Of a DNA stretch of 64,000 nt, positions 11,516 to 57,162 are shown piece by piece. Source of the DNA: Heterotrichella gracilis (taxonomy: Eukaryota > Sar > Xanthophyceae > Tribonematales > Xanthonemataceae); contig JAULBX010003444.1 of assembly GCA_032358255.1 (NCBI GenBank), positions 62,001 through 126,000 on the forward strand, given 5' to 3'. Numbering within the stretch: position 1 is the stretch's first letter; every line of letters begins with the position of its first letter. Both the position numbers and the translations under genes were made by a program. The notes beneath the pieces were generated by a model. The model did not search any database and was not told where the DNA came from. It saw only the letters and a program-made list of their open reading frames with translations.

Positions 11516-12718
11516 CTAGTTGTCGTCTTCCTCCCACAGCTTCTCCAGCCAGATGTAGGTGGCCGCCCAGTTGGCGAACTGGCCTGTGCGTCCTGACTGA
11601 CTCGAATACACTTTGATGCTGCCACATGTGCCACAAGCGGCTTTTGAAGGCAGCATGTGGTCCCCGGTGCACAACGTGACATGTGGTACGCCAGGATGTC
11701 TCCCAGGATGGCAGGATTAAGCTCCCTCAGCTTCTTGCCTGCTTGTTCTGCAGAGATGGCTTCGCCTACCCCTTTGCTGAACAGATGGTGTATGCAGTGC
11801 GCCATCAGCCGTTTTAGCTTGAGGCGATTGGCCAAGACTGCAAGGTCCAGCACGTTGTTGTTGTCTGGATCCAGCAGGCTGTTCATGCGGCACTCCTTGT
11901 CGTAGAACAGGTCAAGCTTGGTGAGTGGTCCCCTGGCGTCAAAGCAGCCTGCGACGGCAGCCAGGCGCTGTGCCTCCTCCAACTGCATAGAGTGGGAGAG
12001 GAGGGTGGTCAGCGGTGGACGCTGCACTTGTGCAGTACTAAGGTATCTCACAAGGTGGCCACAGGTTGTTCAATAGGTGGCAATGGGTGGCAATTGCACC
12101 AAGCGCTCTCGGGCCAGTACTGGCATTAGTGGCAAAAATTTCTGGAGCATCATGGGCTGGGATTCTGGAGTCTCCGGTTACAGCAGACTGCACATGTGTG
12201 TGCCTGCATGCATATGCCAGATGAAGGTGCATGGCCCTTCAAGACTAGAGCAGACAAGAAGGGAAGCTGTAACTCACATATTTTATGTCGGGCTTGCCCG
12301 GTCCCCCGTACAGGTGCTGCAACAGCAGCTCCACATCCTCGTAGCTTAGCTTCTTGTCGCTGACCTTGTACTTGTCAAGGTCTATGCGGATGATGCCGTC
12401 TGGGGAGCTGCTTTCGACGGAAGACAGCAGGGAGCACAGCACACCAGAGAAACACGACAGCACCTGGCTATGCGCAGGCAGAGTTTTGCCGTCTATGGTC
12501 AACTCGACGTCCACGCTGCTGGCGATGTTGCTTTGGATTGGTGTGCGCTCCAGCTTGGCCAATTTCTTGTTCAAGTACGAGGGCAGCTGCCCATCTTCAG
12601 ACGCTTGAGCGCGAAGTACTGACCGGCGATTGGGGCGTGCCACCGGTGCTGCTAGCCACGCACACCTGCTTGTACTCAACCGAGATGTTGCTGACGGCAT
12701 GTGACTCAGAGACACCAT
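11516..12718 (-). CDS. BTB/POZ-domain protein with a predicted plastid-type leader
   Basis: Exon 1 is 12718-12278 and encodes 147 residues. Its first 45 residues are Ser/Arg/Ala-rich with no acidic residue and lead to RRSVLRAQASEDG, which looks like a chloroplast transit peptide with a VRAQA-type cleavage site. A BTB fold follows: VDVELTIDGKTLPAHSQVLS, then YEDVELLLQHLYGGPGKPD. Exon 2 starts at 11982 (LEEAQRLAAVAGCF) and continues the helical half (LDLAVLANRLKLKRLMAHCI). BTB proteins usually dimerise or act as CUL3 adaptors in the cytosol or nucleus. The 3' end is ambiguous. The frame as sequenced runs to a stop at 11401 through basic, low-complexity sequence, whereas a neighbouring frame from about 11.67 kb gives a more protein-like helical end (FANWAATYIWLEKLWEEDDN) stopping at 11516. 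This suggests a one-base indel near 11.64-11.69 kb. The coordinates follow that alternative end. Confidence 0.82.
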
Positions 12719-14487
12719 CTTGGACGAGCTGACAAGCTCTCAGTCTATTGCAACTGGGCCCTTCACCTCTCTGAACAAGGTGACCCTATTCAAGCATGAT
12801 GAACACCTCTTATTTATCAAGCAAGCTGCAACCAGTGGCGTTTGAGTCGCCAAGTGGTTTTGCAAAAGCGTTATGTGCATGCATGCATGTTCGCAAACGC
12901 ACATGCCTGCTTCCATGCATGCAAAAGCCCGCAACCAGTGCCGCACCCAAAACGTCGATTGTCCAGCCTGTAAACCAACTGCCACCTAGCACGAATTATG
13001 TTGTTTGTAAAAATCCTATAGCTATAGCACAGGACCACTTCCCGTGTCTGGTCAACGTTCTGAAAAGCCTGCCAGCATTGGAGTTTCTGCATAAGTTCAA
13101 GCGCCGTTTGTAGGCTCTACAACCCACGCCAGTGGCATGGATATCGTTAAGAAAGATAACAATTTGTTGGGCTGTGCACCAGCTGCTTAGTAGTACCATA
13201 GGAGGTGCACTTTCTGACGCCAAAGAGCACCGTCCCAGCGCTCTGGCTGGGATGCGCTGCAGTGCTGCAGCTGCCATGGGCTACATGGGCGACTCTGTGA
13301 CTATATTGCAGGGATTGGGGCTGGCGTACCGCCTTAATTCTCACCCACCCACCGCCAGCATACAGACAGCACCACATGCATAGCTACCTACCACCCATGC
13401 GGTGCACACTCCCCCCCTTCAAACCCCCCTCACACACACCACCACATGACCCACCTTGCAGCCAAATTCCCCACACAGTGCCCCACAACACCGCTTAGCA
13501 AGACACCCCCATTGGCGGCGTTGTCATAGGTGTGCCTTACACATGTGCGCCATACCATTGACTCAGCGGGTGCCCGGGATAAGAGCGAGCTAGCGCTACA
13601 ATTTTAAGGTGGCGCTGAGGCAGCATTGGTGGGGTTTGAACGCAGTGCATGGTGACAGCAGGACTGGCGGTTGGCGGTGGCGGTGCACAGTTGGGGTGCA
13701 ACATGGCAGTGCGGGCATGGGAGGGCTGGACCTTGCCTGGGGAGGGGACTGACACGCGCAAGTGTTGTGTGGTGGCTGCGGCATGACATGCCATGACCCG
13801 TGTACCATTATGCGCTCTGGCATAGATGTGAGAAGTGCACAGGATCTGCTACCTGTGGGTGGCAGTGGCATGTGCAAGCATGCCTGCTCTGCAACACAGC
13901 TGCTGGCCAGCTATTGGCATCAAGAGAAGATTTTATCAATATAAAGCACTCTGCGCGTCTCTTGCAACCAGGTGCTAGGCGCAATTGCTGTCACTCTGTT
14001 GGCAGTCTGCGGAGGAGCACCCAAATTTGGAACCGTATTTCCCCGAATACATGAGAGGGTACCCTAGAACCTAGACGCAAATGGCTGCCTCATAATTACG
14101 CCCCTGAAATATGATGCATATTTGATGCTAGACCTGATTGTATCAGGTTTCGGCCCCCGACCCGCACTGCAGCTCCCTCTATATTGGCTCCGAGACCAGG
14201 CACTCGGCTGTTGTTGACACCCATCCCACCCTGATCCACCTTGAGTGACGATTACAACGTTCACTTACTTTCGGAACATGTCGCGGCAGCCGGATGTTAC
14301 GCCAGAGTGGTTTCGGGGATGTGTTATGGGGGCGAGGCAGCCCCCACGATGTGGTACCATGCCAGTTTGAATTTGCCCACAAACCATCCATCCAACCCAC
14401 TGCCCACTACGCATATGCTGGTGCTCTGACCGTCCGTTCCCGCGGCTATGACTGCGCCGCCCCTCCTCCCCCCCCGCTAGCCTGAGC
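12719..14487. other. Intergenic region between BTB gene and PP4R3
   Basis: This lies between the start of the minus-strand BTB gene and the start of the plus-strand PP4R3 gene, so it contains two divergent promoters. It holds the second copy of the diverged direct repeat (about 13660-13985). No reading frame resembles a known family. Confidence 0.4.
13660..13985. repeat. Diverged direct repeat, copy 2 (partner 10660-10930)
   Basis: This is the second copy of the non-coding sequence also seen in the LysRS 3' region; the shared blocks are listed at copy 1. It lies about 3 kb from its partner in the same orientation. The family is unknown, and no terminal repeats or target-site duplication were seen. 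Confidence 0.5.
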
Positions 14488-17400
14488 ATGGCCTTCCAGC
14501 AGCGAGTGAAAGTGTACGTGCTCAATGGGGAAGGCTACTGGGACGACAAGGGCACGGGGATGGTATCGATTGAAAGCCTGGAGCAGTCTGGAGGTGCACC
14601 AGGCCTGGTGGTAGTCGCGGAGGATAGCATGAAGCCCCTGCTCGTCCACTGCATCTACCCCGACGAGCTGTATCAAAGGCAGAATGGAGACACCATAATC
14701 ACATGGACCGACCACCAAAGTGGCCTGGACTTTGGGCTCAGTTTCCAGGAGGTCAGCGGCTGCGAAGTTATATGGGAGCGGTTACAGCAGGTGAGGGCGC
14801 ACGAGGTGACCTAGAGGGTGGGTGCTGGGCGGGAGCAACTGCCATGGGTGGCAAGCCCTGTTGGATGTTTCGCGTGCTGGCTGTGGTGTGAGGCCTAGAG
14901 CGGGTGTTTATGGTGCTGCTACCTATATTGATGCACGACAAGCGTACTGTCGCCCCGCTGCGCGTGTGGAACGGGTTGCTGGTGCATGCATGCAGGTGGG
15001 TCGCAGCAAAGGTGGTGTGCATGCTGTAGTTCAAAACAACAGTGCCCCAGCATAGCAGCGCGTGTGCCACCTTTTGCTTCCCTGCTTAGGAAGCTTGTAC
15101 CGGGTAGTGTTGCCGGGCTTCCCCCTGTGTGGGCATGGGTGCCCACTGTGCTGGCCATATGCATGCATTGCGTCCCTGCCTATGCCATGCACCGGTTGCA
15201 TGTCAATACTGTGAGTTTTCAATACGAGCTGCTGGTGTGTGCGACTCACTGGATTTCCTGCAGTCACGTTCTGCGGTCTCTGCTGTTGGCGTTGTGCCCC
15301 TGCGCCCTGCAGTGATTAAATTATCCGGCACCTATAATGCGCACTTCCTAGCCACTTGATGGCTTGGAGATGGGCAGAGGGTCACTGCTCTGCATGCTTA
15401 TCCCTGAAATCGTCGTATTGCCTGGTACTGCACGCACCTCCCTCACACCAACCCCACTGCAGTGCGCACCCTTCACCAAACCCTTCCTGTGAACCCTGTT
15501 CCTTCATACCCAATAACCCCCTCCCCACCCGCACCACAGATCCAGGATACAAATGGCAAGGGGACCAACGGGGCAGGCGGCGCCAAGCGGCGCATGGTGG
15601 ATGAGTTTGAGCACCTGCCCGCGTTGGGGGATGGGTACGAGGGCCCTGTGGGTGGCGGGCCTGTGGCGCCCCTCCCCCGCCCCACCCTGGCCAACCTGCC
15701 TCAAATAGCGCGGCTGCTGTCGGACGCGCAGCACTTTCAGAAGGACAGCTACGCAGGGCAGCTGCTGCAGGTGGGTGTGGGCGGAGGTGGGGTGGGGTTG
15801 GGGGGCGTCCTAGCACGACATAGGCCGGTAGTGAGGCGGAAGCGGGGCGGAAGAGTGGGGTGGGACCCATGCGTGCATGTGGCACAGGAAGGGCTCTGTG
15901 GCAGCCTACTTCTAGCCCCGTGCACAGCTGCACCGCCATGGCATTACTGGGCAGGCGGGCTGGGGTCCCAATATGCTACAGCCCACCCGCGGCTTGGTGC
16001 AGCAATTGGGCTGGCACTAATATAAGCTTGGAGCTGCGTGTGCAGTGTTAGACAGCCCCAAGCTGCTTTTCCTGCTTGGAAATGCCTGGACAATGGACGC
16101 AGGCATGCATCAGTCTTTAGAAAGCAGGGTACTAGATTATCGTCGCCCCGGAGGTTGGAACTATTATCGAATTGGGACAATGGTTTTTTCCTGATAGCAA
16201 TTTAAGGAAACAGCCATGCTCGCATTGCCCCCTTTGCCAGTCCCTTAGTTATGACTGGGGCTGCCTGTCATATCCAGGGCAGCGGGTGTGCGTCAAAGCA
16301 TGCAGCACATGGTTTTTGAGGGCGTACATGTAGAGTACCCACCGCCCTTTGCACCAATGGGAGCGGAACCAGCGGAATCCGACTCTTCCCCAACCTCCCC
16401 ATCCCCAGGACGGCTACCTGTCCCAGCTGCTATCCCTGTTCCGCCAGTGCGAGGACCTTGAGGACGCGGCGGGCCTGGCGCACTGCTACGCGGCCGTGCG
16501 GGGGGCTGTGCTGCTGAACGACACGCAGCTGCTGGAGGTGATGGTGGGGGAGGCGCACGTGATGGATGTGGTGGGGGCGCTGGAGTACGACCCCGAGGTG
16601 GCGGGGCATGTGCGGCACAGGGAGTTCCTCAGGGACAAGGTGGGAGGCGTGGGGTGGAGGGTGGGGGCGGGATGTGAGGGTTGTGGTATGGCTTAGATTT
16701 GGCAGGGCAGGTGAGGGTTTCTCGGGGACAATGGGGGTGGGTTGGTGTGTGGACAGGGGTATGATGGGTATTGGTTCACAAAATTGCTACAGGGGAACGG
16801 TCGTGAAATGGTAGTGGGAAAATTGCTACAGGGGAGGGGTCGTGAAATGGTAGTGGGGGAAATTGCTACAAGGATTGAAATGTGCAAATTGTGATGCAAG
16901 GAATTCCTGGTGGAAAGGAAAGGCGAGCACCTGCACGGCTATCCACACACACACTGCATGCCACGCCCTGGTGCATCTCTCGTGCATGTGGCAATGAGCA
17001 TGCATGATGGGAATGGCCAGTCGACGCCAGCACACCCCACGCACGACGCTTCATTTCCACATCAATCGCTCATATTCTGTCAATCACAAACCAACCCCTC
17101 CTCCCCAGGTTGTTTTCAAGGAGGTTGTCCCCCTGTCCAACCCCTCGCTGCGCGCCAAGGTGCACGCCACCTACCGCCTGGGCTACCTCAAGGACGTGGT
17201 GCTGCCGCGCGTGCTGGACGACGCCACCTTTGCCACGCTGTCCTCGCTCATGCTGTTCAACAGTGTGGAGGTGGTCATGGCGCTGCAGCAGGTGGGGTGG
17301 TGGGTGGGTGGGTGGTGTCATTATTTTGTTGTTCAATGGTTTAAAGGTGGTGGGTGGATGGCCGATAGGTGTTGCACATGCATGGCTTGGCATGTATTTG

Positions 17401-20400
17401 TGGGATTGGTGTGGGCGTTGGATGGTGGGTCATGGGCCATGGCCTTCACAAGCAGGATTGTGGCGGTTGGGGGTATCGTTGGTGCACTTGGGGGACACGC
17501 GTTCATGACCCGAGCACACACATGTATACTACCACCACTCAGTGGCGGCCACCACCTGTACCCATGTGACACCCCCCCCCCCCTCCTTCCGCCCCCCAAG
17601 GACCCATCCTTCTTCCCCTCCCTCATGTCCAAGGCCCGCTCCCTCTCCCCCTTGGACCCCGCCTGGCCCGACCTGCTGTCCTTCCTCCAGGAGCTGTGCA
17701 CTGCAGCCAAGCACCTGCAGCCGCAGGCAAGGCTGGCGCTCATGCAGGGGCTCATACAGCTGGACCTGTTCCAGGTGGGTGCAAGGGGGCAGCGGCAGTT
17801 GGGTGTGGGGCTGCTTGCACTGGCAAGTATGGCGTGTGACTGGAGTGGCGTGAGGCGGGTAGCAGCGCATGCATACTACAACGAAAGCGGTTTGGATTAT
17901 CAACAAGTATTGAGCTGCAGTGGACGAAAGCACCGCATTACCCAGATGGGAACGGATAATGTAAATGTTGGCGGTCTTGGCTAGCGCGCATCTGTCTAGG
18001 CGCAGCTAACCACACACTGGGGTGTTGGGCACACATACCCCGGCAAGACCACCTGACCCACCCCTCCTCCCTCCCAGGTCCTATCCACCGCCCTGCGCAG
18101 CGGCACCCCTCCCCTGCCTGCCCGCGCCCTGGACGTGCTCCTGCTGGCTATCCAGCACGACGCCTCGCCCCTGCGTGCGCACCTGATGGCCAAGGGGAAC
18201 AGGCAGCTGCTGGAGTGCATGGTGGACATGCTCACGGCTTCGGAGGACAGCGGGGTGCAGGTGGGTGTAATGGAATATAATTACAATTATTGTTTTAATA
18301 ATTTTACTTTTATTCGACAACTGTGGAAAAGGCTGGTGATTGCATGCCACAGAAGGCATATATCTTATGTATGTGTCTGAATATAAGTGGGTTACTGTGG
18401 GTGGGTGGGTGGCGGGCAAGCAGCTGCCAGTTGGTAGACGTGGGACTCAGGTGGTGCTGGCCTGGAGTGTGTGCAGGGGAGGGGTACATGCGGTGGGTGT
18501 ACGGGGCTGGGGGCATGCAGAATGTTTGATGGCGTTGAGTGTGTAGGGGGAGGGAGGGGAGAGGTGGGATGGCCATGTGGGAGCATCAAGCAGGTGTATG
18601 GGGGTGGAGCAGGTGTATGGAGTGGTTGCAGGATAGGCAGCAGTGCAGCCTAACCCGCGGGTAGGGCTAGGATGTTGGAGAACATCCCTCCCTCTTGTGT
18701 TGCCTATGCATGCTCCTGTTCACCCCTTCTTCCCCCTACACCCGCTCCTTTCCCTGCCATTGCACATATTCAGGGTTTTAGGGTTTCCTCCGTTGTGCAG
18801 GGCCAGGTCCTTGAGGTCCTGCGGCTGCTTTTTGACACCGACACCATGGACCAGTCGGTGGAGAAGAACGACTTCTTGCAGGAGTTTTACGACAAGCACA
18901 TGGGCAAGCTCATGGCCATCCTGCCGCAGGAGGTGGCGCCGGGGGCCCCCGCGAGTGGGGTGGGTGGGGGGGTGAGCGTAGCCACGCTGGGGCTGGTGCT
19001 GGAGCTGCTGTGCTTCTGTGTGCAGCACCACAAGTACATGTGAGTGGGGGGTGGGGGTGGGGGGTGGGGTGTGTGCCACGTGGAGGCCGGGCATTCGCGC
19101 ACCCATGCATGGCGCACCACTTACCACAACACGTGATCGGAGAGGAATGTCGCCCTGGAATCTACACCGTCAGCCCTAGATGTAGGGTCGTCGTTCTATT
19201 GGTAGCCCAGAGCTACTTGGGTTGACCTTGCTTTATGTAGGCTGCCTGCACACCTGGATGTACAGCTGGAGCGCATGTGAATAGCTTGTGGCTTTGTGCC
19301 TCCAACTTCCTTCCTGTAATTGGTTCAAGGTTTCTAGGTCGTTGCATGCTGAAAACGTTCAAATCCTTCAGTCAACACCAATCACCTGCCCCGCATTCAG
19401 CCCCCCACCACCACCCTGCCCCCACCTCACCCACCCCTTCACCCCGTGCGCCCATTCAGAATCAAGCACTACGTGCTGATGAACAACGTGGTGGGCAAGG
19501 TGCTCCGACTCATTGCGTGCCGCGAGGGCTGGCTGGCCGCAGCCGCGCTGCGCTTCCTGCGCACTGCACTGGGGCTCAAGGACGACTTCTACAACCGGCA
19601 CCTGGTCAAGAACAACCTGCTGGAGCCGGTGAGGAGGGGGGTGTTTGGGGTTGGTGGGGGAAAGGGGGGGGACGGGCAAGCAGTGTTCGAAATCCATAAA
19701 TGAGCGCGCACTTCATGAAACAGGAACTGCTGTTGTTGCTGCAAATGATGCCTGGAACCTGAGGTCGGGATGCCATCAACGGCTGGTATGCTGCTGCCGT
19801 ATGCTCAACCGACTGCATGCACACACTACTAGTGTGATGTTAAGGAAGCCATTCCCACCCTTACTGGGTAGCAGTTACCACCAAGGGGTTGTCATGTCAT
19901 GCTGGTACGGAGAGGAGCACATGCCGCATGGCCTCCTCACACCCCCCAGCTGGTGGCCACCGACCAGCACCACCACCACACGTCCCGTTAACTGGTATAT
20001 AGATCAACCCACATGCCTACACTCACCTCCACACCCACACCCACACCCACTCCAGGTTGTGTCCAAGCTGCTGTCCAACGGGCCCCGGCCCAACATGATC
20101 CAAAGCGCCATCCTGGAGCTGTTTGAGTTTATCCGGCGCGAGAACATCAAGGCGCTGCTGGAGCACATAGTGGACAAGCACTGGGCGCAGCTGGAGGGGG
20201 TGGAGTTCACAGACACGTTCAAGCAGCTGCTCATCAAGCACCAGCAGAACCAGGTGGGGTAAACTGGGAAATAACTTAAAGTCTGGCAATTGCATCAAGC
20301 TCCTCCAGAACCAGGTGGGGTAGTTGGGAAAAATTCCAATCCTATCAAGTGTAAGCGCATCAAGCTCCTTGTCAAGCACCAGCAGACCAGGTGGGGTGGG

Positions 20401-24389: not shown

Positions 24390-26060
24390 ATGTACTTGGT
24401 ATCAGTGCGCACGCATTCATGCAGGAGTGCACAGCCAAACTGCAATCCACTCATGTGATGCAGTCCAGTCAAATGGCATCCTGGGGCCAGGGCCGTGCTG
24501 TCCTGCTGAGCGTCCAAGAGGACACAATATGCCAGCCACTTGCTGCCCTTGGCAGTGAGCTACATGGCAGCGACTGGGCCAGCCTTGGGCCTATGAGTGC
24601 TTTGCAGGATCTGTTGTCACACAGTGTCATGTGGCATGGTTGGTGTCCGGGTGCACAGCCATATGATGCAGCACCCCAGTGTACTGGTAATCATAAACCA
24701 AGCCACAACACATTGTGCGTCCATGCCAATGGCAGTGTATGCTGCTGAGACCTATGCCACCTGCACACCCCCATGCACAGGCGTGCACTCCCTGAACAGT
24801 GCTGCAACGCCACAGCAGGAGGTGACCAATGGACGCCAGAAGACGCTTCGGAAGCTGGTATACCGGCCATGAGGTACACTGCGTGCCATGTGCAAACCTA
24901 GAGCTGCCTGTGATAGAGCAGTCTTAGACGTGGGTGAGGGCTGAGTGCTCAGCAAAGTTTTGCAGCCGCATGCATGGGCAGTCATCAGTGACTCTATGAT
25001 TAATGACTCATCACGTTGAGGTTACAGCAGTCCTGATCATCCCAGCAATACCCAGACTGGTGAAAGAGAGGCATATACATGCATGCATCATATCATTTTA
25101 CAATACCAATATGGCTGAGCTGGCTTTCCACAGTGGTGACTTAGATAAGGGTATAATACCTGATACGGCAAGCTTCAGCGAGTCCCGAATGGAGGGTCTT
25201 CAAGACGAAGAGCATCCGCAGAGGTATAGCATACCGTATGCTCCAAGAGTCTTGGAAGGTAGACAGGGTGCCCAGGCTTCGGGCATGGAGTGCAATAGCT
25301 ACTGAAGGTTATTGCTGCAGGTCAGCAAGCAAAACGAGGTGCCGGAACGGCAGTAGCGAGCTCGCCTGATTCCTGACTGAGTCACTGCAGCCAGCTGCAG
25401 CAATGCATAGCCTTAGAAAGTGATCACGTACGTTGGCCACTCAGTGAGTTTGTTTCCGAAACCTCCGGCGGAGCCTTGAGGTTTTTCTGGCAGCAGTTGG
25501 TTGCGACAGTTCCAACTTCAAAACCGTTTGGCAAACCGTGGACATGTTAAAAGGTGTTTTTTAAGCTTTCAGAAATTCTTTCAATCCTATCACGCGCTGC
25601 CGTGTTATACTCACCCTGCCAAAATTTTACCGATTTGGGTTGGCTGTACATGCTGCTAGTATGTAATGGCATTGCAGTCATGTGCTGCAGCAGCAAGACC
25701 TTTACCATGCACGTTGACCTTCAGCCTAAGGCCTAGGGTTGACCATGCATGGTCAATGACATTGGCAATTTTATACACTTATTCAAGCAACATGCAAAAA
25801 AATTCTTATATTCTGGTTGCAACCATTGCAACCAGCTACTGCATGCGTGAGCAGCATCCAATCTGGATGAATCACCATCCCGAGCTTCAGCGATGGATGG
25901 TGTGGCAGCAGGTGGGAGGAGAAACAGACGTAGGGGGAGTGGCTAGCTGCCAATGACCATGCCATGATGAGCTGTACGACTACATAGCTTGCTAGCCAAT
26001 CGGCCGAGGAGTACCACTCTACACCCAACCCTCTAGCTTCCACGCCGGGTAGGCTACCAT
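24390..26060. other. Intergenic region, no gene recognised
   Basis: This stretch lies between the unidentified minus-strand gene and the 3' end of the U-box/HUBL gene. A plus-strand segment ending at 24872 (a short basic C-terminus, RQKTLRKLVYRP) has an acceptor before it but no matching upstream exon. No third to fifth USP7-type ubiquitin-like domain is encoded here on the minus strand. Confidence 0.35.
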
Positions 26061-29000
26061 TCAGATCCCAAACCACAATCCCTCCGCCCAAAGGCGCCAA
26101 CTAGCGTTGGTAGCCTTGTCCTCAAAGTACAGCACTGCTGGCACTCCGCACATGGCCTCCGGAGTGTAGTTGGGCCCCAGCACATCCAGCAGGCTGGCGT
26201 GGGAACCGCGCTGGAACCAGACAGGGTTGGCCTCCTGGGCGTAGCACTTTTGCGTGAATCGCACAAGCAGGGGCTCTTTCAGGCCAAGGGCGATGGCCAA
26301 GCGCTCAGCCACTTGTGGGTAGGTCAAGGCCTTGGACAGTACTAGCTTGATGAAGTCATTCTGTGGGTGGGGAAGGGGTGGGTGGGTGACGGAGGAAACC
26401 TTGGGGGGTCATGTGCTGCATGGGCGCCAATTCCCTACCACCAGCCGCTTCAAGCTATGCCAACGCCACTTCTGGCTCAGGACACCTCGCGCCCCCTCCA
26501 CACACACCCCCAATCCAGCTCCAGAGACCCCCTCCCCCCCCCATGCCAGAACACCATCGGCACACACCACCACCACTGCACCCATACCTTTGGCGCCTCC
26601 ACCCAATTTGCATGAGCTTGATCAACACCCACCCAACCCCTATCTCCACCCTGCTCCCATCCAGCACAAACACCCAACAACAATCACAATTAGTCCCCGC
26701 CTGTGACATCTCCAACCATCAGGCTATACACAACTGGCACCCACCCCCACCACCAATTGCCCCCACCTGTGGGTCCTTTAGCCACCTGAATGCCACCTGC
26801 ACATTGCTGCCCACAGGTTCCAGGAAGTGCTTTACGGTTGGGTACTGTAGGTCCTCGGCCTCCTCCTGCAAGGGGTAAGAATTAGGAAGAGGGGTACTTT
26901 CGAGGTTGCGGGTGGCATATGCCATATGGTGGCTGGAAGATGCAGCAGCAGGGGACACGCTCACACGTGGTGCAGGGGGAAATAAGCTCCCTCCCATGGG
27001 CTGAAATTCCATTATTGTGCTTGTGTTCACTGGTACGCAGATGGCACCGAGCAGGCACCAACAACTTGCTTGAAGCACTCTCAACGGTTGCCGCCATGCA
27101 GGAATTGACTAAAAAACTAAACTTACCAAAACCCGCAATTGTAAAAAGAGCTGAAAATTTAATGCACTCCCAAAAATCCCTGATTGGTAACTTTAAATCC
27201 TGTTCTGAAAACCTTTTAGGATCTTGAGAGATTCCCACTACATCAATTTGAGAATGATCCCTGATTTCACCCCACCTGGTCCACCCACGAGCCAATTCTT
27301 ACCCCCCACCCCACCCCCACTCACCGGTGTCAGCGCCCGCTGCACGCACAATATGTCCCCATGCTCCATCCGCAGCTGGTCCTGGCAGAGGATGGGGGAG
27401 GTGTTGGCTGTGCGCTCGCACACCACAGATGGCTCAAATCTGATCTCCTCATAAACCAACAGCGGCACGTCGATTGCCAGCCCACATATTCTGCGCAGCC
27501 GCGGGTACAGGTCAACTATCCTGTAGGATTTGTGCACCCAGGTTGTCTTGCGGAAGGACAGCGTGGATGTGATGGGGTCATAGAGCTTGATGAACAGCAG
27601 GACCTCGGACGGGAATGGGAAAGGGTAGAACTCGGAGATCTGTTCACATGTCGTGCATTTGGGACTCCTTGGTGACATTGGCGGGGGCGGCCAGCTGCGA
27701 GAGGTGGTGGTGGTGGTGAGGGCAGGGGAACAAGGTCTGGCCCGGGTCACGGACATGGCATGGTGCAATGATGGGGCGGAGTTGCATGATCATGACAGGG
27801 ACAGTGCAGCACATGGGTGATTATCAGCAAGGGCTGCACCCATGGGCTGCACCCATGCCACTATCTACAGAAATAATGGTGGGAGGATTACACAACCCGC
27901 ACTGTCTCCCCTCACCCATCTCTAAGGTAACAATACATAACAATATACTATATAACAATTTAATACCAATATACCAATATACCAATAATAGTATACTATC
28001 ATTTGAAATGCTGGTAGTCAATACTAATATTATATCCCCGCTATAATTCATAATAATATTGGTATTATCCTGTCGACGTCATGCCAGAACGAATTTAAAA
28101 TAAGGAAAATAGCTATGGCCCCCTCTCCTACTTCCCCACCCATCTTGGCCACGTCCAGCACCCGCAGCCGCTCCTCCTCACGATCAAGTGTCCGCTTGGG
28201 GCGATGTGTCCCATTCTGGCGTCTGCCCCACACCCAGAAGCGCTGCTCCTCCACAGGCACACCCAGCTCCCTGGCCACTAGGGTCTTCACCTGGCTGAAA
28301 GGGTCTTGCTTCTTTACTCTGAAGGTCTTAACCTGCGCAGAGGATGAGGGGCATCATCTGAGTATAGTGTATTGTGTTTGGTGCGGGAAGGGTGTGTGCG
28401 CGAGGAGGGGTGTAACCGTGACCTTGGGGGCAATAATGAAACTTCAATGAAAGGAGTCGCCTCCCCTATGTTGTTGTTGCATTTATCTGCAGTGGCAGGG
28501 TCTGCTCTGCCACTTCTCATTGCATTTCATCTACACCTTCAAACACGTGTCTCCGAGGGCATTGCCGCTACCTCGCGACCACCTTTTCATGCTATATTAC
28601 CACCCCAGTTACAGCTTATACACCTTCTCTACACACCTGCCCACTCCTGTGAGAAAGAACAAAACCCTAGTACCTGATCATATTATTGTGCATTGTATAC
28701 AAGAAATGTTGTCAGCAGGCATATAACATTTTGCCTTCCACATCACCTCCACTACTTGACCAGTCTACTAGGGGCGCCCGTTATGGACTTAAGCACTGAA
28801 AGCCTGGAAAGTGGTTCCTTGACCCTCGGCTTAAGTCCGTAACGGCTTCCACACACTGCGACAACGTGCGCGATTCAGATCAGAGCTTCACACACCAGGC
28901 ATAGGGCTGGGAACCCACATCCTGACCAGGTCCTCTATAACGTCCATTGTCTCCTCTGTGTTTGTGTCCCACGCTGATATATTTTTTCAATGTGACAATC

Positions 29001-29864
29001 ACATGCCACCTCTGCCAACCTCACCTTTCCATGGTCCACCAGATCGAAGAACCTCGTGCTGCCCACCTGGTTCTGCATGTCCTGCATGGTGGCTACCCGC
29101 ACATTGATGTACAGCTGCGCCTCATGCGCCTCATTGGCATCCTGTTCAGTGCACTGAGTCGTCTTGGGCTTTCTCTGAGATTGTGGGGAGTAGGGATTGA
29201 ACCAAATTATCCACTGACGCGGGCAGAGGAGGAGGGAGGCAGGTGTACAGTAATGGGGTTGGGGTCAGGAGGCTATACAAATGGGCGAGGAGCAGCTGGT
29301 GTACAATTGCGCCTCTCAGAGTCTCCGTGCGCTTTCTACTCCATGGAATCCTGATTGAGTTAGAGTGGGAGTACAGGGTGGCACTCACAGTCCATATTGT
29401 TGGGAAAATCCTTCTACCACAGGTGCTGATGCTACGATCAAGGAACCAACTGGGGCGAGTAATAAGAAAACCTACAATCTTTTGGTGCGGACCCCAAAAG
29501 AGGGGGACGTGTGGGTTTGTCAAGTTAGGGCCGGGGTGAGGAGCAAAGGGAGGGAGGAAAATCCTAAGCAAGTGTACTCTACGTAGACAGAGTCTTTCAG
29601 GTCCCCCCGCATGCTACATGGCGGCCTCACCCAGGGGCGCACTATCCACTGCTCCACAGCAGACTTGGTGGCGTAGCTGGTGACCAGGTGCTTAGGGTTA
29701 ATGGGGGTGTTGGTGACGTGGCACGTAGGGGCTTGCCGCTGCTTACGCTGCTCAAGGTAGCGTTTGATGGCGCTGCGCTGGGATCTATGGCCTGGTGTGT
29801 GGACCACGGGGTCAGTCAACAGCTCACACGATGTGGGGCACAGCAGCCAAGGGTCGGGCTCCAT
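26061..29864 (-). CDS. U-box protein fused to USP7/UBP12-type ubiquitin-like (HUBL) domains, no protease domain
   Basis: Exon 1 (29864-29631, 78 codons) encodes a complete U-box: LLCPTSCELLTDPVVHTPGH, AIKRYLEQRKQ, then CHVTNTPI and SYATKSAVEQW. It ends in phase 0 at GTGAGG. Exon 2 (29174-29025) starts in phase 0 and matches the beginning of the HUBL region of USP7/UBP12/13 (AHEAQLYINVRVA, STRFFDLVDHGKV). Exon 3 runs from 28332 to about 28098 (QRFWVWGRRQNGTHRPKRTL), exon 4 is 27694-27325 (EVLLFIKLYDP, VYEEIRFEPSVVCE, MEHGDILCVQRA), exon 5 is 26865-26767, and exon 6 runs from 26360 to the stop at 26061 (LTYPQVAERLAIALGLKEPL). Known roles are E3 ligase activity for U-boxes and substrate or regulator binding for HUBL domains. 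The UCH catalytic domain and the last HUBL repeats are absent. A frame change inside exon 4 near 27.65 kb is not explained by splicing, so a decayed gene, a sequence error or an unusual splice remains possible. Confidence 0.7.
27963..27986. repeat. (ATACCAAT)3 in AT-rich intron
   Basis: Three exact copies of an 8-bp unit lie in a very AT-rich block (about 27930-28060), inside the intron between exons 3 and 4 of the U-box/HUBL gene. Confidence 0.9.
28778..28845. repeat. 17-bp inverted repeat with 34-nt loop
   Basis: The left arm CCGTTATGGACTTAAGC (28778-28794) and right arm GCTTAAGTCCGTAACGG (28829-28845) are complementary at 16 of 17 positions. The hairpin lies in intron 2 of the U-box/HUBL gene. 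No target-site duplication was seen beside it. Confidence 0.9.
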
Positions 29865-30680
29865 GTGGTCAACCTTGGGGTAGCCCAGTGGTGTAGGAAA
29901 CCCTGGTAAGGGTTAGGGGTTGGGTACAGCTATTGGCCAGGATGCTTTGTGGGCGATAGGCTACTTTAATAAATATATTGTGCAGACATTAGAGGCTGCA
30001 ACAGCTGCAACAGTATCCTGTGGTGGGTCTCTTCCCTCTAGGTAGGGTCACTAGAGTTGAAGCATGGCCCAGTGGAAGTACCAATAGCACACAGCACTGT
30101 ATTTACTTTCAACTGCACTAATGCTAAACATTTGTTGCTTCTGCCCACACTTGAGGCGCGGGGAGTGCTAGCTAAAACAATTCACTGGAGTTAGCCTAGG
30201 TGCCTGACCGTTATATGTGCACACGCTTGCTTTGCAGGGGGCGAGCTAAACCATGCACTTCGAACAACCTTGTACCTGTAGCCATCGACGGTTCAGCGGT
30301 GAACGATTCGGTGGGACCTAGTACTATGTACCAGGTGGTGAGTGTTACTGTCCCTCGGTTGCATGTGACACACGTTGCATGTGACGCACGTTGCATGTGA
30401 CACACTCTGACATATATGCATCCTTGCGATGCTATTCGTCAGCCAACTGCCCAGATACTACTCTGCCCATCCGGGTGATAGCTATCTGTTATCGTATATG
30501 TACCTCCACACAACCTCTAAAAGAAGAGAAACCAGGTCTCTGTATTCAGCTATATTATAAAGCAACTCACCTTGTATCAGCTGATCATGATATCCAGTAC
30601 CCTCCAGACAGTCTAGTACTAGCTAGTAGCGGTTTACTAAAGCTACACTTGCACAGCCTTTTTTTCGCATTCGGCGCGCC
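29865..30680. promoter_or_regulatory. Bidirectional promoter region between U-box/HUBL and alpha-kinase genes
   Basis: The start codons of the two diverging genes are 816 bp apart, so the interval must hold both promoters. Near its middle are three tandem copies of a 16-bp unit, TTGCATGTGACACACG (30359-30406, one substitution in copy 2), which could be binding sites. No TATA box could be assigned confidently. Confidence 0.45.
30359..30406. repeat. 16-bp tandem repeat, three copies
   Basis: The unit TTGCATGTGACACACG occurs three times head to tail. Copy 2 reads GACGCACG in place of GACACACG. The repeat sits in the shared upstream region of the U-box/HUBL and alpha-kinase genes. Confidence 0.9.
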
Positions 30681-31814
30681 ATGTGGCGCTGGTTTACTGG
30701 ACTAAAGGAAAGGGTCATCTGTGTGGAGCACGGGTCTGGTCATGGCCTGGGCTTCACAGCGGCAGCAGCAGTGGCAGAAGGCACCTGCCGCTACGTCGCC
30801 AAGTGGAGATATGCCGCAGGTCCCAGAAAAGACCAGTTCTGCGCATTCAAGTGGTTCAAGACAGGAATGGTATTCGAGGAAAGCTACTATAAGCACGATC
30901 TGGCAGCCATGGCGCTGGCTCGAGAGTCTGTAGCAGCGTTCAACGCGCTGAGGGTGGTGAACAAGACGATCAACGTCAGTGACAGCGATGTGCTCACGGT
31001 TATACGGTGCAGCCAGGCAGGCAACTTGGGTGGTAAAGTCCTGGTGGAGCCGTGGATCGAGGGTGCCGGCTTTGAGAAGTTCAACAGCAACAGCGGGTGG
31101 TGCCACGAAGCATACAAGACCATGCAAGCCCTGTCCCACTTCAGCTACCACAGAAGCGACAGGAAGTATCTGCTCTGTGACCTGCAGGTGAGCGAATGCA
31201 ATGCAGCTTGAATATTGTACGTGCATATCCCTACAGTTGCTTGGGCATCCCTCTGTGCAGTAATTGCAAGAAAGCATGCATGCATGCCGCTTGCATGCCA
31301 CCCCTGGCCAATGGCTACCCCCCCCCTCCCTCCTGTGCCTGGCTACCCTACTACCCTCTTCACTGATGTGCCACCAGCACCATCACCACCTACAAATTGA
31401 AGTGTTTCTACATCCAAATAATTGTAAGCTTTGCAAGCACTGCACCTGATTCACTTACCACTCGCCACATGTGTGCCACAGGGTGGACGCTTCCACGACA
31501 GCTACATGCTCACAGACCCAGTCATCATGAGCACAAACAGAGAGTTTGGGCCAACTGACCTGGGCGAGGAGGGCATCAGCAACTTCTTTGCCCACCACAC
31601 GTGCAATGAGCTGTGCCGCAACTGGAAGAGGCCACGCCGCGTGGCGCCGTCAAGGACCATCACACCCATGAGCAGCACCCTCTTCCTGCAAGCGCCTCAG
31701 GTCAGGACTGCTGCCGGGCGTTCAGCACTACTAGGCATCTCTGAGACACGCCTTCTTCCTGCGCCTGCTGCCCGTCCCCTCCTGAATTGGCACACTGTGG
31801 CACGGTTCACCTAG
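30681..31814 (+). CDS. Alpha-kinase (MHCK/eEF2K-type) domain protein
   Basis: Atypical protein kinase of the alpha-kinase family. Exons are 30681-31187 and 31482-31814 (279 residues), joined in phase 0. The N-lobe has the ATP-anchoring lysine in CAFKWFKTG (K57). The middle carries VEPWIEGAGFEKFNSNSGW and the HFSYHRSDRKYLLCDLQ strand. The C-lobe has the Gly-rich and catalytic stretch GGRFHDSYMLTDPVI, then FGPTDLGEEGISNFF, and the zinc-site HHTCNELC (residues 207-214). All hallmark residues appear intact. The protein is essentially only the catalytic domain. It lacks the calmodulin-binding and Sel1-repeat parts of eEF2 kinase, so its substrate is unknown. The 30 residues after LFLQAPQ are low in similarity, and a GTCAGG after GCGCCTCAG could be a donor to an unseen exon. 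It is divergently arranged with the U-box/HUBL gene. Confidence 0.92.
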
Positions 31815-49200: not shown

Positions 49201-50881
49201 TCTTGCCATTCTGGCGGGAGGAAGCAAAGTACCCTGCGCTGCTGTTGAAGCACCAGCTGGATGCATTGGTGCAGAAGAATTTCACCATGCTGCGTGACAA
49301 TGTGAGGAAAGAGATTGCACCACTGCTGAAGGCATGCATACTCCCACGCAAGGCGGCCAGCATGCGCATAGGTCGGCCGACTTCCTTGCCAACCTGTCAG
49401 CGGCCTGGTGAGTGGCAGCTGGCCAATGGCAGCACCGCAAACCCGCGCATGTCTTTCTTACTTGGCTGGCAATGGGTAGCCACACGAGGGCAACCCAATG
49501 CATGCGCCAAGGAAGCTGTGCTTGATCTGTTGGTGCTTGCATGGCTTATGAGTGCATGACACTGGCTACAGCTACCGTTACAATGGTGAACAGCAGCGCG
49601 TCTGTCCTTGCAGGCAATATGCAGCAGCAAATGCTGACCATCCTCAACGTGTTTGACCAGCTTTTGACCACATTCAAGGCCAACCACGTGCCCTCCTTTC
49701 TGGTCAAGGAGCTGTTCCAGGACATCTTCTCTCTTGTCAACGTGGTGCTGTTCAACCAGGTAGGGGGAGTAAATTCTTGTAATATATTGTATGACTAAAT
49801 AATACAAAAATATAAACAAAACAATTCGCCCCCATACAATTTATAATCAACAGGAGGGCCTTTATCTTTGTTAGATCCCCTTACCAATGTACCTGACAGG
49901 CTGCGTAGTCAACTATTTATTTCCAAAAACAAAGAAAGTTTTCTACTTTGTTCAACCAGGTGCTGCTGCGCCGTGAGTGCCTCAGCCCCGGCAATGGCCT
50001 ATACATCAAGAATTGCTTGTCAGAGATGGAGAAGTGGATCCAGGGGGCAGGCAAAGAGTGGGTGGGCGCTTCATGGGAGGAGCTCAAGCACATCCGCCAG
50101 GTGAGGCCTTGTAACAGAGCAAGCGCTGACACCTGTCATGCAATGAGGTGGATACTGGCCATGGTGTTTGCATGGGTGCCAACGGCAGACCTGGCACTGC
50201 ACAGCTGACTTTGCACAAGTACACATCCCATGCATGCATCACTGTATGCCGGTGGCATGCGGCCTTTGCGTGTGCATCACTGCATGCTATCGTGCGCCAT
50301 GCACAATGCTACCAACACTGTGCTACCGCCTGCATGTCCCTCACTTGGCCTCCCACTACCCCTGCCGCAGGCCGTGACCTTCCTAATTACCCCCCAAAAA
50401 GACTGCATGAGCCTGGAGGAGATCAGCAATGACCTGTGCCCCATGCTGAGCATCAGGCAGCTGTACATGATCAGCTACCAGTACTGGGATGACCGCTACG
50501 GCACAGAGACAGTGTCGCCTGATGTCCTTTCGCGCATGAGGCAGGTGTTATTGGCGGACAACGGCTCGGCGGCCAGCCGCTCCTACCTTTGTTACGACTC
50601 CACCATACCCTTCTCACTGGATGACATATTTTTGCTCATGGATGGCAAGGTGTGTGTTGCCTTAGTGTTGCCAGCTGACATGCCATATCCACCCTTCTTA
50701 TGTGCCCATTCATATGAATATTTATTACACTCCTTTTAGCCATTCAAACCCTGCCTGTATAGATATACAGTGTATTGCACCTGTAATGTGCTAGCCCTGG
50801 CCATGCGCATCTATCAAGGTATGCCGCAAGGGCTTCCCCTTGCTGTCTGACCCGCCTCCATGCAACAGGGCACCAGCATGA
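46268..50881 (+). CDS. Motorless DIL-domain protein (class XI myosin tail-like) with N-terminal membrane helix
   Basis: Exons: 46268-46657, 46991-47311, 47512-47727, 48055-48417, 48746-48989, 49169-49407, 49614-49759, 49960-50100, 50371-50649 and 50819-50881 (the last less certain), about 800 residues. Residues 30-51 form one hydrophobic helix (GAVEAAAVLAAAVATLVAAS). Residues about 130-310 are Gln/Glu/Lys-rich and suited to coiled coil. From about residue 432 the protein matches the globular tail of plant class XI myosins: LGFHKGRPVAA, LFGKIINTMSSQLEMQQDNN, LSNTFALLYLVQKNIKSAG, FLVKELFQDIFSLVNVVLFN, LLRRECLSPGNGLYIKNCLS and LCPMLSIRQLYMISYQYWDD. No motor, neck or IQ motifs lie upstream before the divergent dolichol kinase gene. 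The DIL domain normally binds cargo adaptors, so a membrane-anchored, non-motile role is inferred. Exon 3 is one base short of the needed phase (see findings). Confidence 0.88.
49749..49961 (+). repeat. 13-bp direct repeat flanking the 200-bp intron 7 of the DIL gene
   Basis: TGTTCAACCAGGT occurs at 49749-49761 across the donor and again at 49949-49961 across the acceptor, exactly 200 bp apart. The intron (49760-49959) therefore starts and ends inside identical CAG/GT sequences, and its interior is much more AT-rich than the exons. Confidence 0.95.
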
Positions 50882-52094: not shown

Positions 52095-54138
52095 ATGAAG
52101 CTGAAGGAGCTGCAGTCGTTGATGCAGGTATGCTGGCGCCAGGAAGTGGTGCTTGAAAGACAACAACCTATCATGGTACTACTGGCATTTGTCTGCAGTC
52201 CACTTATTGCATGCATATGGCTCCACGCTCAAAGACCACGAACACATTATCTTGAACAGGCGAGTCCACTTGCAGGACATTCGACCGTTTGACAACCCTA
52301 AGGTCGACCTTGAGCAATACCCTACTGGGCCACACCTTGCCTCCCGTCTCCTATTCACGGTAGCTACGACAACCTGGCCAAACACACAATCACAAGCAGC
52401 TTCAACCGCCAACACTGCCCAACCCACCCTCCCATCTACATTTCATGCAATGGTTGCATTTCGTTTATGTAGTCTCCCATATGCTGCTGCCTCTGCCCAT
52501 CAGTCATAATACATCATCACTAGCTCCGCAGTGACCGTGTCATTGCGGTGGCCTTGCCCCAGGTTGCCAACAGCTTTGATGAGTTTGATGGCCAAACTGT
52601 GCTGGACCTGGGCTGTGGAACGGTATGCAGCCACACTATGCAACAGCCACGCTGCACATTTTTTGCCATGGAGAGCCCGGGAACACAATGCCGAATACAA
52701 CCTATAAATACGCACCACCACACAACAAAGTAAACTATATTTCTGATATTGTGCATAGTGTCTTCCTGCATTCAGCTCTAGCTGAAAATGTACCGGCGTG
52801 TGCATGGCATGTGACGCCCCACCCCTTCCTCCTGCAGGCCATGTTGAGCATTGGCGCCGCCATGCTGGGTGCCGCGCATGTGATCGGTGTGGACGTGGAT
52901 GCAGACGCGCTGGAGGTGGCGCGGGAAAACTGCGAGCAGTTTGAGGAGCACCTGCCGGTGAGTGGCTGTGGTGCTATTACCTGGAGGTTGCACTCCCTAT
53001 GTTGTGCATGGGTACTAGTGTGGTGGGGCTGCCCACGTCAGCCGCTGGGAGGGTGTGTACTGGAATTGGCGAAGTTGTACCGCCTGCCACATGCTGCTTG
53101 GATGACATGTTGGCTACGCACCCAGTTCCTATTTGACAACCACCTTTATGACTCGTGCCTGCGCTACCACTCCGTCGCGCACCGCCACTGAAATTTAACC
53201 ACGAATATTGTTTAAAATAACTAATAGTTGTAGTTAAAGAAAGAGTAGATTAAAAAAACATTAGACATCATGACACTATGCAGTTAAAAAATCCACACAC
53301 ACCCGCCCCCAGATCGACCTCATCCAGCTGCCCATCTCCCTCCTCCACCTGCTCCCCCGCTTCACCGCCGACACAGTCATCATGAACCCGCCCTTTGGCA
53401 CGCGGCGCAAGGGCGCCGACATGGAGTTCCTGCGCGCAGCCTTTGCCGCCTCCCGCCACACAATCTACTCGCTGCACAAGTCCTCCACCCGCGCACACAT
53501 CCTCAAGGTTGGTTCCACACACTCCAGCTGTACAGCAGTCAGCCTGACACAAACTTGTGCCACACAGATCTGTTCTGTCATTTCTTTATGTTTTTTGTAC
53601 TTAATTGTCTCCATTTTCTAGGTGGCCACGCGGGATTTGGGGGCGGCCTCTGCCCAGGTGCTTGCTGAGATGAGATACGACCTGCCGTCCAGCTACCAGT
53701 TCCACAAGTAAGGGTGGTGGGGAGGATGCTAGTGCAGCAAGTGGGGGTTTTGGGTATGGGCGGGTTCCAACAGGTCAGACAGTAAGGGCATGGGGAGAAG
53801 GTCGCCGGCCCATGTGTAAAGGGATCAGGGTGGAAGGAGATGGTTCATGGAAGTACCAAGTCACGTGGACTGCATTCATGTGTACTGTGGTCACATGCAT
53901 TGCTGCAAAAGCTGCTTGCCTATGTCTACATTTGCCCATGAGTCAACCCTTTCCCTCTGCTATTGCTGGGATCCTACCCAACAGTGCACTGATGACTGCA
54001 ATTACCGTGTCACAACCGAATATGCATTATCACGTGACCTCCCCCTTCACCTCCCATCCACCCCCATCCCCAATCCCCAGGCTCAAGTCCAAGGACATCG
54101 AGGTGGACCTGTGGCGATTCGAGGTGGGGCGGACGTGA
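52095..54138 (+). CDS. METTL5: METTL5 18S rRNA N6-adenosine methyltransferase (7 exons)
   Basis: In other eukaryotes METTL5, with TRMT112, makes a single m6A in 18S rRNA. Exons: 52095-52127, 52276-52359, 52563-52622, 52838-52957, 53313-53507, 53622-53707 and 54081-54138, totalling 636 nt and 211 residues, nearly the length of human METTL5 (209). Landmarks are MKLKELQSLMQ (start), FDNPKVDLEQYPTGPHLASR, the SAM-binding VLDLGCGTAMLSIGAAMLGA, the acidic motif VIGVDVDADALEVARENC, the catalytic NPPFGT (N124-P125-P126-F127), the YSLHKSSTRAHILK loop, RYDLPSSYQFHK and the terminal SKDIEVDLWRF. The 11-codon first exon was fixed by the ATG nearest the family start and by phase. All junctions are GT-AG and no breaks were seen. 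Confidence 0.96.
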
Positions 54139-55707
54139 GAGCTGGCCAGCGTATCCTCAAGGCAGATGCGCTTTCCCCGCTTGCCATGCCATGGACAAGC
54201 CAGTGGCAAGGGCACACACAAGCATGTGACATCGGTGGTAGTGGAGGTCTGCCCCAGGTGTTTTGGCAATAAAACTTCCTTCTTTCAAATTGCCAAGGCC
54301 CGCCGCCACGTCGTGCTGGGGTATTGAGGGTGAGCGTGTTGCCCCAGCCCGCACTGGGCGCTTACGTCAACACCAAGCGCCACCACACGCCACTCAGACA
54401 CAGCAACGCCCTCGCCAGCTTATCTGCAGGACTAGATATCCCGTTCCCTCCCCGGGAGTGTCCCAGCCCCAAGCACCAGCCTAAACCACCCTGCTCAGCA
54501 GCTAAGGGAAGTTAATACACCCTGTCATTTGACATTCCCTGCCATTGCCCATTCTCCTGCAGCCACCTTCCCTTAGCGGCACATAGTGGCACTCCTCAGG
54601 CAGAGTGCCTCTGCTCCTGTTTCCTTCCCTTTGGGATCCTTGCAGGTTCCTTGACTGGCTTATCCTCAAGGCGGTAAAAAGTCGCCACTGCCGCCTTGCT
54701 ACTGTAAGACAACAACAATTTTCTTTCCTGACAGACCTAGTAATGAGGTCTTGGACGTGGCGCCATGCACGTCTGGACGTCGAGTGCAAGCCTTGCAAAA
54801 GACATGGGCAGCGTGTGTCTGAGAAATTTACAGGATTGAACGGTGGCTGCTTATTGACAGCAGTTGATCTGCCTGTTGAACACCTCACCCCCCCATACCT
54901 TACCCCCCATTTTCCCCGGGAAACATAAACCCATACTTCCAGCCACACTTGGCCTGTTAAGTAATCGCACAGTGCTCCTAACCCTTGTGGTTGATGCCTT
55001 GACAAGCCCATACCTCCACTGGATCCAGCCACACTCGTCCTCGTCACTTGTAAACTGGTGCTGCACTTTATTACATAGCTACGGCCTAGCTCTCCTAAAT
55101 TTACCCCACGACCCGGCCGTGAACAAAGGCAACATATATATCACAGCCCATAGTACGAACCATATAAGCCTTCATCAAAGGCAACACCCTCTCGCAGAAG
55201 CTTTTCCAACGCCAGTACGTGGAACCAAGTACCAAGTGGATGTTATCCGGTGCACAACTGCAAACCCTCAGCGGACTGGTCTCGAGCGAAACAAGTAAGG
55301 GCACGTCACCTCCCCGCCGCGCGTTGTTCTATCTGGTTGTCACTTCATCTGGGTGACTCCCTTTGCACCGTTGCCGTTGCCCTGGTTCGATTCACTTTGG
55401 ACCACATATGCATGCATGCATGCATCAAGCACGGTGCGGCAGTGCGCACAGTGCAGCTTCAGAACCTGTAGTCCTTGAGTTCGACTTCATCTATAAAGCT
55501 CGTGGTCAATATTCGTGGTGTAATCTGAAATACGCCACCATGCTCCTCACCCATCACCCCCACGCCCTACACCCTCACTGGTTTTATCCGCACTAAGTCG
55601 CTTCTGCTCCTCTGTGCAGCTCATAAACAGGCTGGGAGTTCACCTGACCGCCAGTGGTTACAGACCACGCATTCTGCCAACCCATCCTTGGAGACGCCTC
55701 GACAACC
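54139..55707. other. Intergenic region between METTL5 and F-box gene
   Basis: METTL5 3' flank and F-box gene promoter. TGTAA, a possible green-algal poly(A) signal, is at 54703-54707. A GCAT microsatellite (ATGCATGCATGCATGCAT) is at about 55408-55425. No coding similarity was recognised on either strand. Confidence 0.4.
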
Positions 55708-57162
55708 ATGGCCAACCCCACCACCAACCCTGTGACCCCCGCACCCCCTCCCACCCACCTCCACGACCTGCCTGATGACCTGGTGCTGCGCGTGCTGTAC
55801 CTGGCCCAACCCAGCGTCCCTGGAAAGGCGCGGCTGCAGGCGGTGTGCAAGCGCTGGCACACCCTGCTGGACGGGCCCAGCCCCGCATGGCACCGAATAG
55901 ACCTCCACCAGGATATGTTCACAACGTCCGACGTGGCAACACGGGCCGACGGCACCGTCTGCAACCTCCTGCGCTGGTTGTGCCGCAAGCTGCCGGCAGC
56001 ACAGCACGTCGACCTGCGGGTGCAGTTGCCCGGGAGGGCAATCCGGTGGGATATGGACAGCGGACGCGCGGTGCCATACCTGTCCCCGGCGCACCTCACA
56101 CACCTGGATGGGCTGATGGTGGCGGGGCAGGAAGCTGGCCCGGCGCTGGCTTGCGTGTGCCGGCTGACTGGCCTCACCCACTTGGGCCTACAGCTGGGGT
56201 GCGCACCTGCGCACGTGGCGTCATCCCTCCCGCACCTCACGGCGCTCAGCCGCCTCGCCTCGCTGGCGCTGTCGGCGCACACCACCAGCCCGTGGAGGGA
56301 CGCGTGGTGGCCGGCGCTGCCCCTGCTGCCGGGGGTGGTGTCGCTGGCGGTGACGCAGCTCCCGGGGAACATGCGCCAGCTGATGGCCACCTTACCCGCC
56401 CTGGAGCGGCTGACGTACACCGTGAACCAGTACATCACCCCCTTGTTCGAGGAGTACATCACCCTTGGCAGCGGTTTGCGCCACATGACCCAGCTGACGC
56501 AGCTGGACATTGAGGTGCACTCCGACTTCCCGCTCTACATCGCCCCGGGCTACCTCCCCTGCTCGCTGTGCGCCCTCACCCTCACCCACCACCGCGCGCA
56601 CCTGCTCCTCACAGCAGCAACCACCCACGAGGCCTTCAGCCACCTCACCCGCCTCACCTCACTCACCATCAAGGGGGAGAAGGTTGAGGGGCTGACTGAG
56701 GCCTTGCTCAGCCTGCGATGCCTTCAGCGCCTGGTGATCAGCCCAGGGAGCATGGGGGAGGAGTTTGTCCTACGCATCGGGCCACACAACCCCGATCTCA
56801 CCTACATACATGCCTACTATGGCCTGTTTGTGGAGTTCGCCTGGCCCTTCAACCCGTTGGTGCACCTCAATTTCAGCTGGGAAGGAGACCCCTTCTGGCG
56901 CCCCACCACACCCCAACCTTCTGACCTCAAGATGTGTATGTCGATTGAGGGGCGCCATGGCCACTACTGGCTGATGGTGGATGCGGATGGGGGCGTCACG
57001 CGGACGGTGCGCTCAACAGACGTGTCGAGTGGCGCAGATGAGGAGAAGGCTTGGTGCATTGAGTGGCTGGACAGCCAGCTACCCAGCGAGGTGTGCCCAG
57101 GGGTGTGCGGCAGTGAGGTGGAAGTGCATGGCGCCATCAGCACAGTACATGCAATAGGCTAG
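55708..57162 (+). CDS. F-box protein with leucine-rich repeat-like body (intronless)
   Basis: Probable substrate receptor of an SCF (SKP1-CUL1-F-box) ubiquitin ligase. It is a single exon of 484 residues. The start MANPTTNPVTPA was chosen because it is the first ATG in frame; the frame itself opens further upstream at a GTG. The F-box is at about residues 18-66 (LHDLPDDLVLRVLYLAQPSV, ARLQAVCKRWHTLLDG, AWHRIDL). The remainder has irregular leucine-rich repeats of about 24-30 residues (LTGLTHLGLQL, LPHLTALSRLASLALS, LTRLTSLTIKGEKVEGLTEA), a pattern common in large algal F-box/LRR families. It is GC-rich within AT-rich flanks and is the only well-supported gene in the window without introns. TGTAA occurs at 57507-57511, about 345 nt after the stop. 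The target is unknown. Confidence 0.8.
   Translation: MANPTTNPVTPAPPPTHLHDLPDDLVLRVLYLAQPSVPGKARLQAVCKRWHTLLDGPSPAWHRIDLHQDMFTTSDVATRADGTVCNLLRWLCRKLPAAQHVDLRVQLPGRAIRWDMDSGRAVPYLSPAHLTHLDGLMVAGQEAGPALACVCRLTGLTHLGLQLGCAPAHVASSLPHLTALSRLASLALSAHTTSPWRDAWWPALPLLPGVVSLAVTQLPGNMRQLMATLPALERLTYTVNQYITPLFEEYITLGSGLRHMTQLTQLDIEVHSDFPLYIAPGYLPCSLCALTLTHHRAHLLLTAATTHEAFSHLTRLTSLTIKGEKVEGLTEALLSLRCLQRLVISPGSMGEEFVLRIGPHNPDLTYIHAYYGLFVEFAWPFNPLVHLNFSWEGDPFWRPTTPQPSDLKMCMSIEGRHGHYWLMVDADGGVTRTVRSTDVSSGADEEKAWCIEWLDSQLPSEVCPGVCGSEVEVHGAISTVHAIG

Follow-up and report, generated by a model that had tools for sequence, protein, structure and literature searches.

The closest described systems are the deubiquitinases UBP12 and UBP13 of plants and USP7 of animals, which are built from a MATH domain, a UCH protease domain and five HUBL domains (HUBL1-5). 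A ubiquitin ligase that is given a substrate-binding domain common to UBP12 is already familiar from the MATH-BTB (BPM) adaptors, although there the common domain is MATH rather than HUBL and the adaptors act via cullin 3. Among the MATH-bearing orthologues, an ordinary UBP12-like sequence is recorded for Chlamydomonas (PMC11511944). Ligases and HUBL1-3 are also brought together in trans, as ICP0 and UHRF1 both bind HUBL2 of USP7 while remaining separate proteins (PMC4457826). On the side of the U-box, the plant ligases of the PUB12/13/14 type offer the nearest comparison. Based on SMART and PROSITE, the 30 PUBs of Chlamydomonas reinhardtii have partner domains of 13 kinds, and HUBL or UBP is not named among these in the excerpts of that survey (PMC4378952). 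Likewise, a fusion of U-box and HUBL is not named in the titles and abstract openings of the open-access literature, covered by searches that were not all aimed at this architecture.

Here, we describe a predicted gene on the minus strand of a 64-kb stretch of DNA (the window, meaning the whole stretch analyzed) in which these elements meet. It has the U-box in common with the PUB12/13/14 type, by profile and by structure-sequence match, and its HUBL1-3 are homologous to and colinear with those of UBP12/UBP13 and USP7. It departs from the PUB ligases in having HUBL1-3 as the partner domain, in replacing I by T and P by H at E2 contacts, and in a four-residue insert in the U-box. From UBP12 and USP7 it differs in possessing a U-box, in showing no MATH, protease or HUBL4-5 within the 64 kb, and in having H at the position of D762. 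This is also unlike the pairing of ICP0 or UHRF1 with USP7, in that the ligase-type domain and HUBL1-3 would share one chain. The gene is a new combination of known domains, and neither a deubiquitinase nor a proven U-box ligase.

A stop-free, phase-compatible model of the six exons (Table 1) predicts a product of about 450 aa, ranging from 432 to 464 residues across four splice models, and in all four the U-box and the USP7_ICP0_bdg profile (PF12436) share a single open frame. The U-box exon and the five HUBL exons are likely to form one gene. The coordinates 29864, 29631, 29174 and 26061 given in the preliminary description were correct on re-check, as was its splice of exon 1 to exon 2, which joins a GTGAGG donor to a CTCAG acceptor in phase 0. 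Its further claim of four or five HUBL exons holds in that five were matched, but these carry HUBL1-3 only, and where intron 3 begins and ends is uncertain. Profile matches to the predicted protein bear out both of the domains it named, the U-box (PF04564) and USP7_ICP0_bdg (PF12436).

Table 1. Predicted exons of the U-box/HUBL gene and the intron at the domain join (window coordinates).
Feature	Coordinates	Strand	Content and boundaries
Exon 1	29631..29864	-	Start ATG and complete U-box, 78 codons; 3' end TGG/GTGAGG, phase 0
Intron 1 (U-box/HUBL join)	29175..29630	-	456 bases; GTGAGG ... CTCAG
Exon 2	29025..29174	-	Linker helix, then start of HUBL1; phase 0 at 5' and 3' ends
Exon 3	28078..28332 (preferred)	-	Remainder of HUBL1; other possible ends 28091, 28132
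Exon 4	27325..27639	-	HUBL2 including pocket residues; other possible starts 27664, 27694
Exon 5	26767..26865	-	HUBL2/HUBL3 link, then first part of HUBL3
Exon 6	26061..26360	-	Remaining HUBL3 and short homology-free tail, stop TGA

By homology, the HUBL part is a plant-type UBP12/USP7 HUBL1-3 that includes the HUBL2 substrate pocket. PF12436 matches these exons with E-values down to 6.7e-40 (cut-off 27 bits), scoring 110.2 bits from exons 4-6 and 128.7-137.4 bits in the four spliced models; the match covers exon 5 and ends in exon 6 at profile position 231 of 241. Among solved structures the matches were to USP7 chains, with a best E of 7.1e-21 for a query whose rough exon 3/4 join differs from the final models, and the phmmer alignment with USP7 6p5l_A starts within exon 2. 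For tblastn against the 64-kb window, the queries were presumed sequences of Arabidopsis UBP12, human USP7 and the UBP12 MATH domain. The presumed UBP12 matched all five HUBL exons once each, in colinear order and at E <=0.12, with the next match at 1.5. The E-values were 4e-05 for exon 2, 7.5e-17 for exon 3, 4e-14 for exon 4 and 3.9e-06 for exon 6; exon 5 reached only 0.12, yet is colinear with the exons that flank it. The presumed USP7 gave two matches (E 1.9e-06 and 0.007; next 2.8). When the longer exon 3/4 join is used, the HUBL part is 39% identical to the presumed Arabidopsis UBP12 and 26% to the presumed human USP7, a difference that suggests a host from the green lineage. In extent, the retained part is closely equivalent to USP7 residues 535-889, the Ubl123 construct (PMC4457826).

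At the positions of N630, D684, E736, E744, D758, E759, D762 and D764 of USP7, the window has N, E, E, V, C, Q, H and D, respectively. For UBP12 we take the residues at these eight sites to be N, D, E, V, C, Q, D and D. Thus N630, E736 and D764 are retained in the window, and D758, E759 and D762 are replaced by C, Q and H. In USP7, binding to DNMT1 is abolished by mutation at 736 or 764 and lowered by N630A, whereas E744A and D762A have no such effect (PMC4432644). Binding to the ICP0 peptide is abolished by E759A, D762A and D764A individually (PMC4457826). Read against these mutants, the residues kept at 630, 736 and 764 and those lost at 758, 759 and 762 indicate, at the level of sequence, that the HUBL2 pocket is half kept: it is changed and not erased.

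The remainder of UBP12 was searched for across the window. With presumed UBP12, USP7 and UBP12-MATH as queries, only HUBL1-3 was matched below an E of 0.3 in the 64 kb. The presumed catalytic domains gave no tblastn match to a UCH protease under E 5 in the 64 kb, and profiles of 10 selected upstream ORFs found no UCH, only four weak matches to other families below the cut-off. The absence of protease exons noted in the preliminary description is consistent with these results, and a UCH exon upstream of exon 2 was likewise found neither among the 10 ORFs nor by tblastn. For the MATH/TRAF-like domain, the presumed UBP12 MATH reached a best tblastn E of 0.38 in the 64 kb, at scattered places, and HUBL4-5 (USP7_C2) had no match under E 1.5 in the window, those obtained being on the opposite strand. 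Profile scans of nine downstream ORFs, of which one overlaps exon 6 at its end, and of one ORF in intron 4 matched no family. The idea that a UCH or MATH exon lies in another part of the window was rejected on tblastn and on profile scans of 20 ORFs near or in the gene and 20 others across the window. A second copy of the U-box or HUBL was also rejected, there being no further tblastn match in the window under E 0.066. The same applies to capture by a mobile element, as direct or inverted repeats of at least 22 bases are absent from 25000-30800, which is not a proof. NCBIfam returned nothing above cut-off and a single chance-level match (E 0.16), and no tRNA, nor any Rfam family at gathering score, was found in the window. 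Relatives of the same architecture were absent from the viral and prokaryote collections, which are not eukaryote collections.

Exon 1 matches the U-box profile PF04564 with an E of 2.3e-10 and 40.9 bits (cut-off 21.4), and its sequence resembles plant-type U-box structures, with 'U-box domain-containing protein 12' as the top match (E 1.8e-07). In the alignment with CHIP, the window has T, C, Y, H and N at the E2-contact positions I235, F237, H260, P269 and R272, the CHIP letters being those that we presume, and lacks the CHIP set. As PUB12 has I, L, W, P and Q at the equivalent sites, the heaviest departures from plant U-boxes are T and H, which sit where four aligned U-boxes and the presumed CHIP have I and P. 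The invariant Gly, Arg and Leu columns of the four-sequence alignment are retained. AlphaFold2 on the U-box exon as a single sequence gave a mean pLDDT of 44.9, a model too poor for use. Of the CHIP mutants tested, I235A alone was inactive with each of the two E2s, and the residues F237 and R272 are important for UbcH5 as well (PMC2396629). The U-box appears partly worn, and T and H at the equivalents of I235 and P269 make the ligase activity of the predicted protein doubtful.

We favor, with a probability of roughly 0.45, a six-exon gene of about 450 residues whose N-terminal U-box and UBP12/USP7 HUBL1-3 would together bring an E2 to the partners of UBP12. Such a gene probably arose when a copied central part of a UBP12 gene, lacking MATH, protease and the HUBL4-5 activator, was placed behind a U-box exon. 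The HUBL2 pocket in HUBL1-3 would then capture the partners of UBP12, the U-box would recruit an E2 to these HUBL-bound partners, and proteins protected by UBP12 would become ubiquitinated. Delivery of an E2 to HUBL partners appears to be the likeliest role of the fusion. That HUBL1-3, freed from protease and activator and placed on a U-box, would amount to a ligase for UBP12 clients and a built-in antagonist of UBP12 is more tentative, and we hold it to be rather unlikely. Of the earlier proposal that a substrate-binding module of a deubiquitinase has been put on a ubiquitin ligase, the joining of the domains without a protease stands, as seen from profiles, frames, codon bias and the missing pieces of UBP12. 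The rest of it is weakened by the half-kept pocket, the restriction to HUBL1-3, and T and H at the E2 contacts.

A fair rival to the ligase reading, though in our estimate an unlikely one, is a fused gene without an active ligase, in which the U-box would not bind an E2 and the protein would act as a decoy, competing with full UBP12 via HUBL1-3. It would agree with the replacement of I and P by T and H, with the inactivity of CHIP-I235A (PMC2396629) and with the retention of N630, E736 and D764 in the pocket. However, the U-box score is well over the cut-off and its invariant columns are intact, and an unusual E2 might fit. A single fused gene is more probable than either separate neighbours or a decayed copy. 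That the two parts are unrelated neighbours, with a U-box gene of one exon followed by a headless UBP12 fragment, is very unlikely. The U-box frame does stay open for 114 residues, counted from the ATG, before it stops at 29520, but a good donor in agreeing phase adjoins the domain, with GTGAGG 12 bases past the end of the Pfam U-box match. Since the two strands together hold 90 copies of GTGAG[GT] in 128,000 positions (7e-4 per base), one is unlikely to fall only a few bases from the U-box end by chance. A by-eye check of the three-frame translations of intron 1 revealed no domain-like extension. In addition, the HUBL part has no ATG of its own upstream of the homology in the open frame of exon 2, yet its open frames and codon bias have been kept. 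None of the six exons has a stop inside it in the stated frame, whereas 11 of the 12 other same-strand frames carry at least one stop and one is open. Codons were scored with tables from other genes of the window (pieces of the alpha-kinase, PP4R3 and F-box ORFs), with exon 3 ending at 28132, exon 4 starting at 27639 and stops skipped in the other frames. The stated frame scored above zero and both alternatives below zero in six of six exons, as in exon 1 with +18.1 against -21.6 and -13.9; the third-position GC of the exons is 0.66-0.77.

The weak point of the fused-gene model is intron 3. The gene may have decayed here, or the sequence may be in error, given that the in-frame splice pairs are weak and the frame from 27694 soon meets a stop. 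A search of GT or GC donors at 28150-28031 and AG acceptors at 27800-27601 found 22 frame-keeping, stop-free joins. The in-frame pairs are all weak, with the donors GTCGAC or GTTCTG, or GTAGGA, the last costing 18 residues relative to the preferred model. The preferred join, 28077/27639, aligns gaplessly with the presumed UBP12 across the junction. Its score is 300, compared with an average of 282 when the 24 residues were shuffled 500 times, and only one shuffle reached it; against USP7 there is no gain (406/500 as high). Its donor, GTCGAC, is weak, and most of the stretch that it adds to exon 3 scores negative by codons. The best-looking acceptor, 27694, runs into a TGA at 27646. A pseudogene (either a fusion that has decayed or a truncated copy of UBP) or an erroneous sequence in exon 4, with a frame shift just before 27645 and then the stop, would draw on 27694-27647, which scores +8.8 in the TGA-meeting frame and -8.5 in the frame of the remaining exon 4, when 99% of 2063 noncoding 16-codon open windows lie below 4.6. 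With an X bridging the break, this reading reaches 135.6 bits on PF12436, not much below the in-frame models, and Pfam bits do not discriminate among the models of intron 3 (128.7 to 137.4). Nevertheless, the coding-like signal extends upstream past the acceptor and may reflect composition, a gain in homology to UBP12 is absent (283/500 shuffles as high, compared to 1/500 for the in-frame model), and the other exons hold no in-frame stops. We regard decay or error as quite unlikely.

Should the fused gene be expressed, it would provide a natural example of a ligase using the specificity module of a deubiquitinase, in which a cut at domain borders leaves the substrate-binding part alone, and HUBL1-3 would prove a free-standing recognition module. 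It would also permit a direct test of whether pairs of ligases and deubiquitinases share targets via shared modules. If the ligase reading is true, the cell could tag exactly those proteins that are normally protected by UBP12/USP7.

Other genes lie elsewhere in the window. The divergent alpha-kinase gene reported in the preliminary description was recovered upstream of the U-box gene (PF02816, E 1.7e-26, 30630-31208 on the plus strand). The same strand carries two pieces of PP4R3, the phosphatase 4 regulatory subunit 3, at 16998-20259 (E 5.5e-31 and 6.5e-17), a match to a PrmA-like methyltransferase at 52589-53188 (E 4.2e-06), and a weak, sub-cut-off match to a DIL domain at 50209-50736 (E 1.7e-04). 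A BTB/POZ match lies on the minus strand at 12248-12739 (E 9.2e-07). Finally, a 504-codon open frame at 55648-57159 on the plus strand, with an F-box-like match (E 7.2e-06) and a third-position GC of 0.82, is another possible ubiquitin-ligase adaptor in the window.
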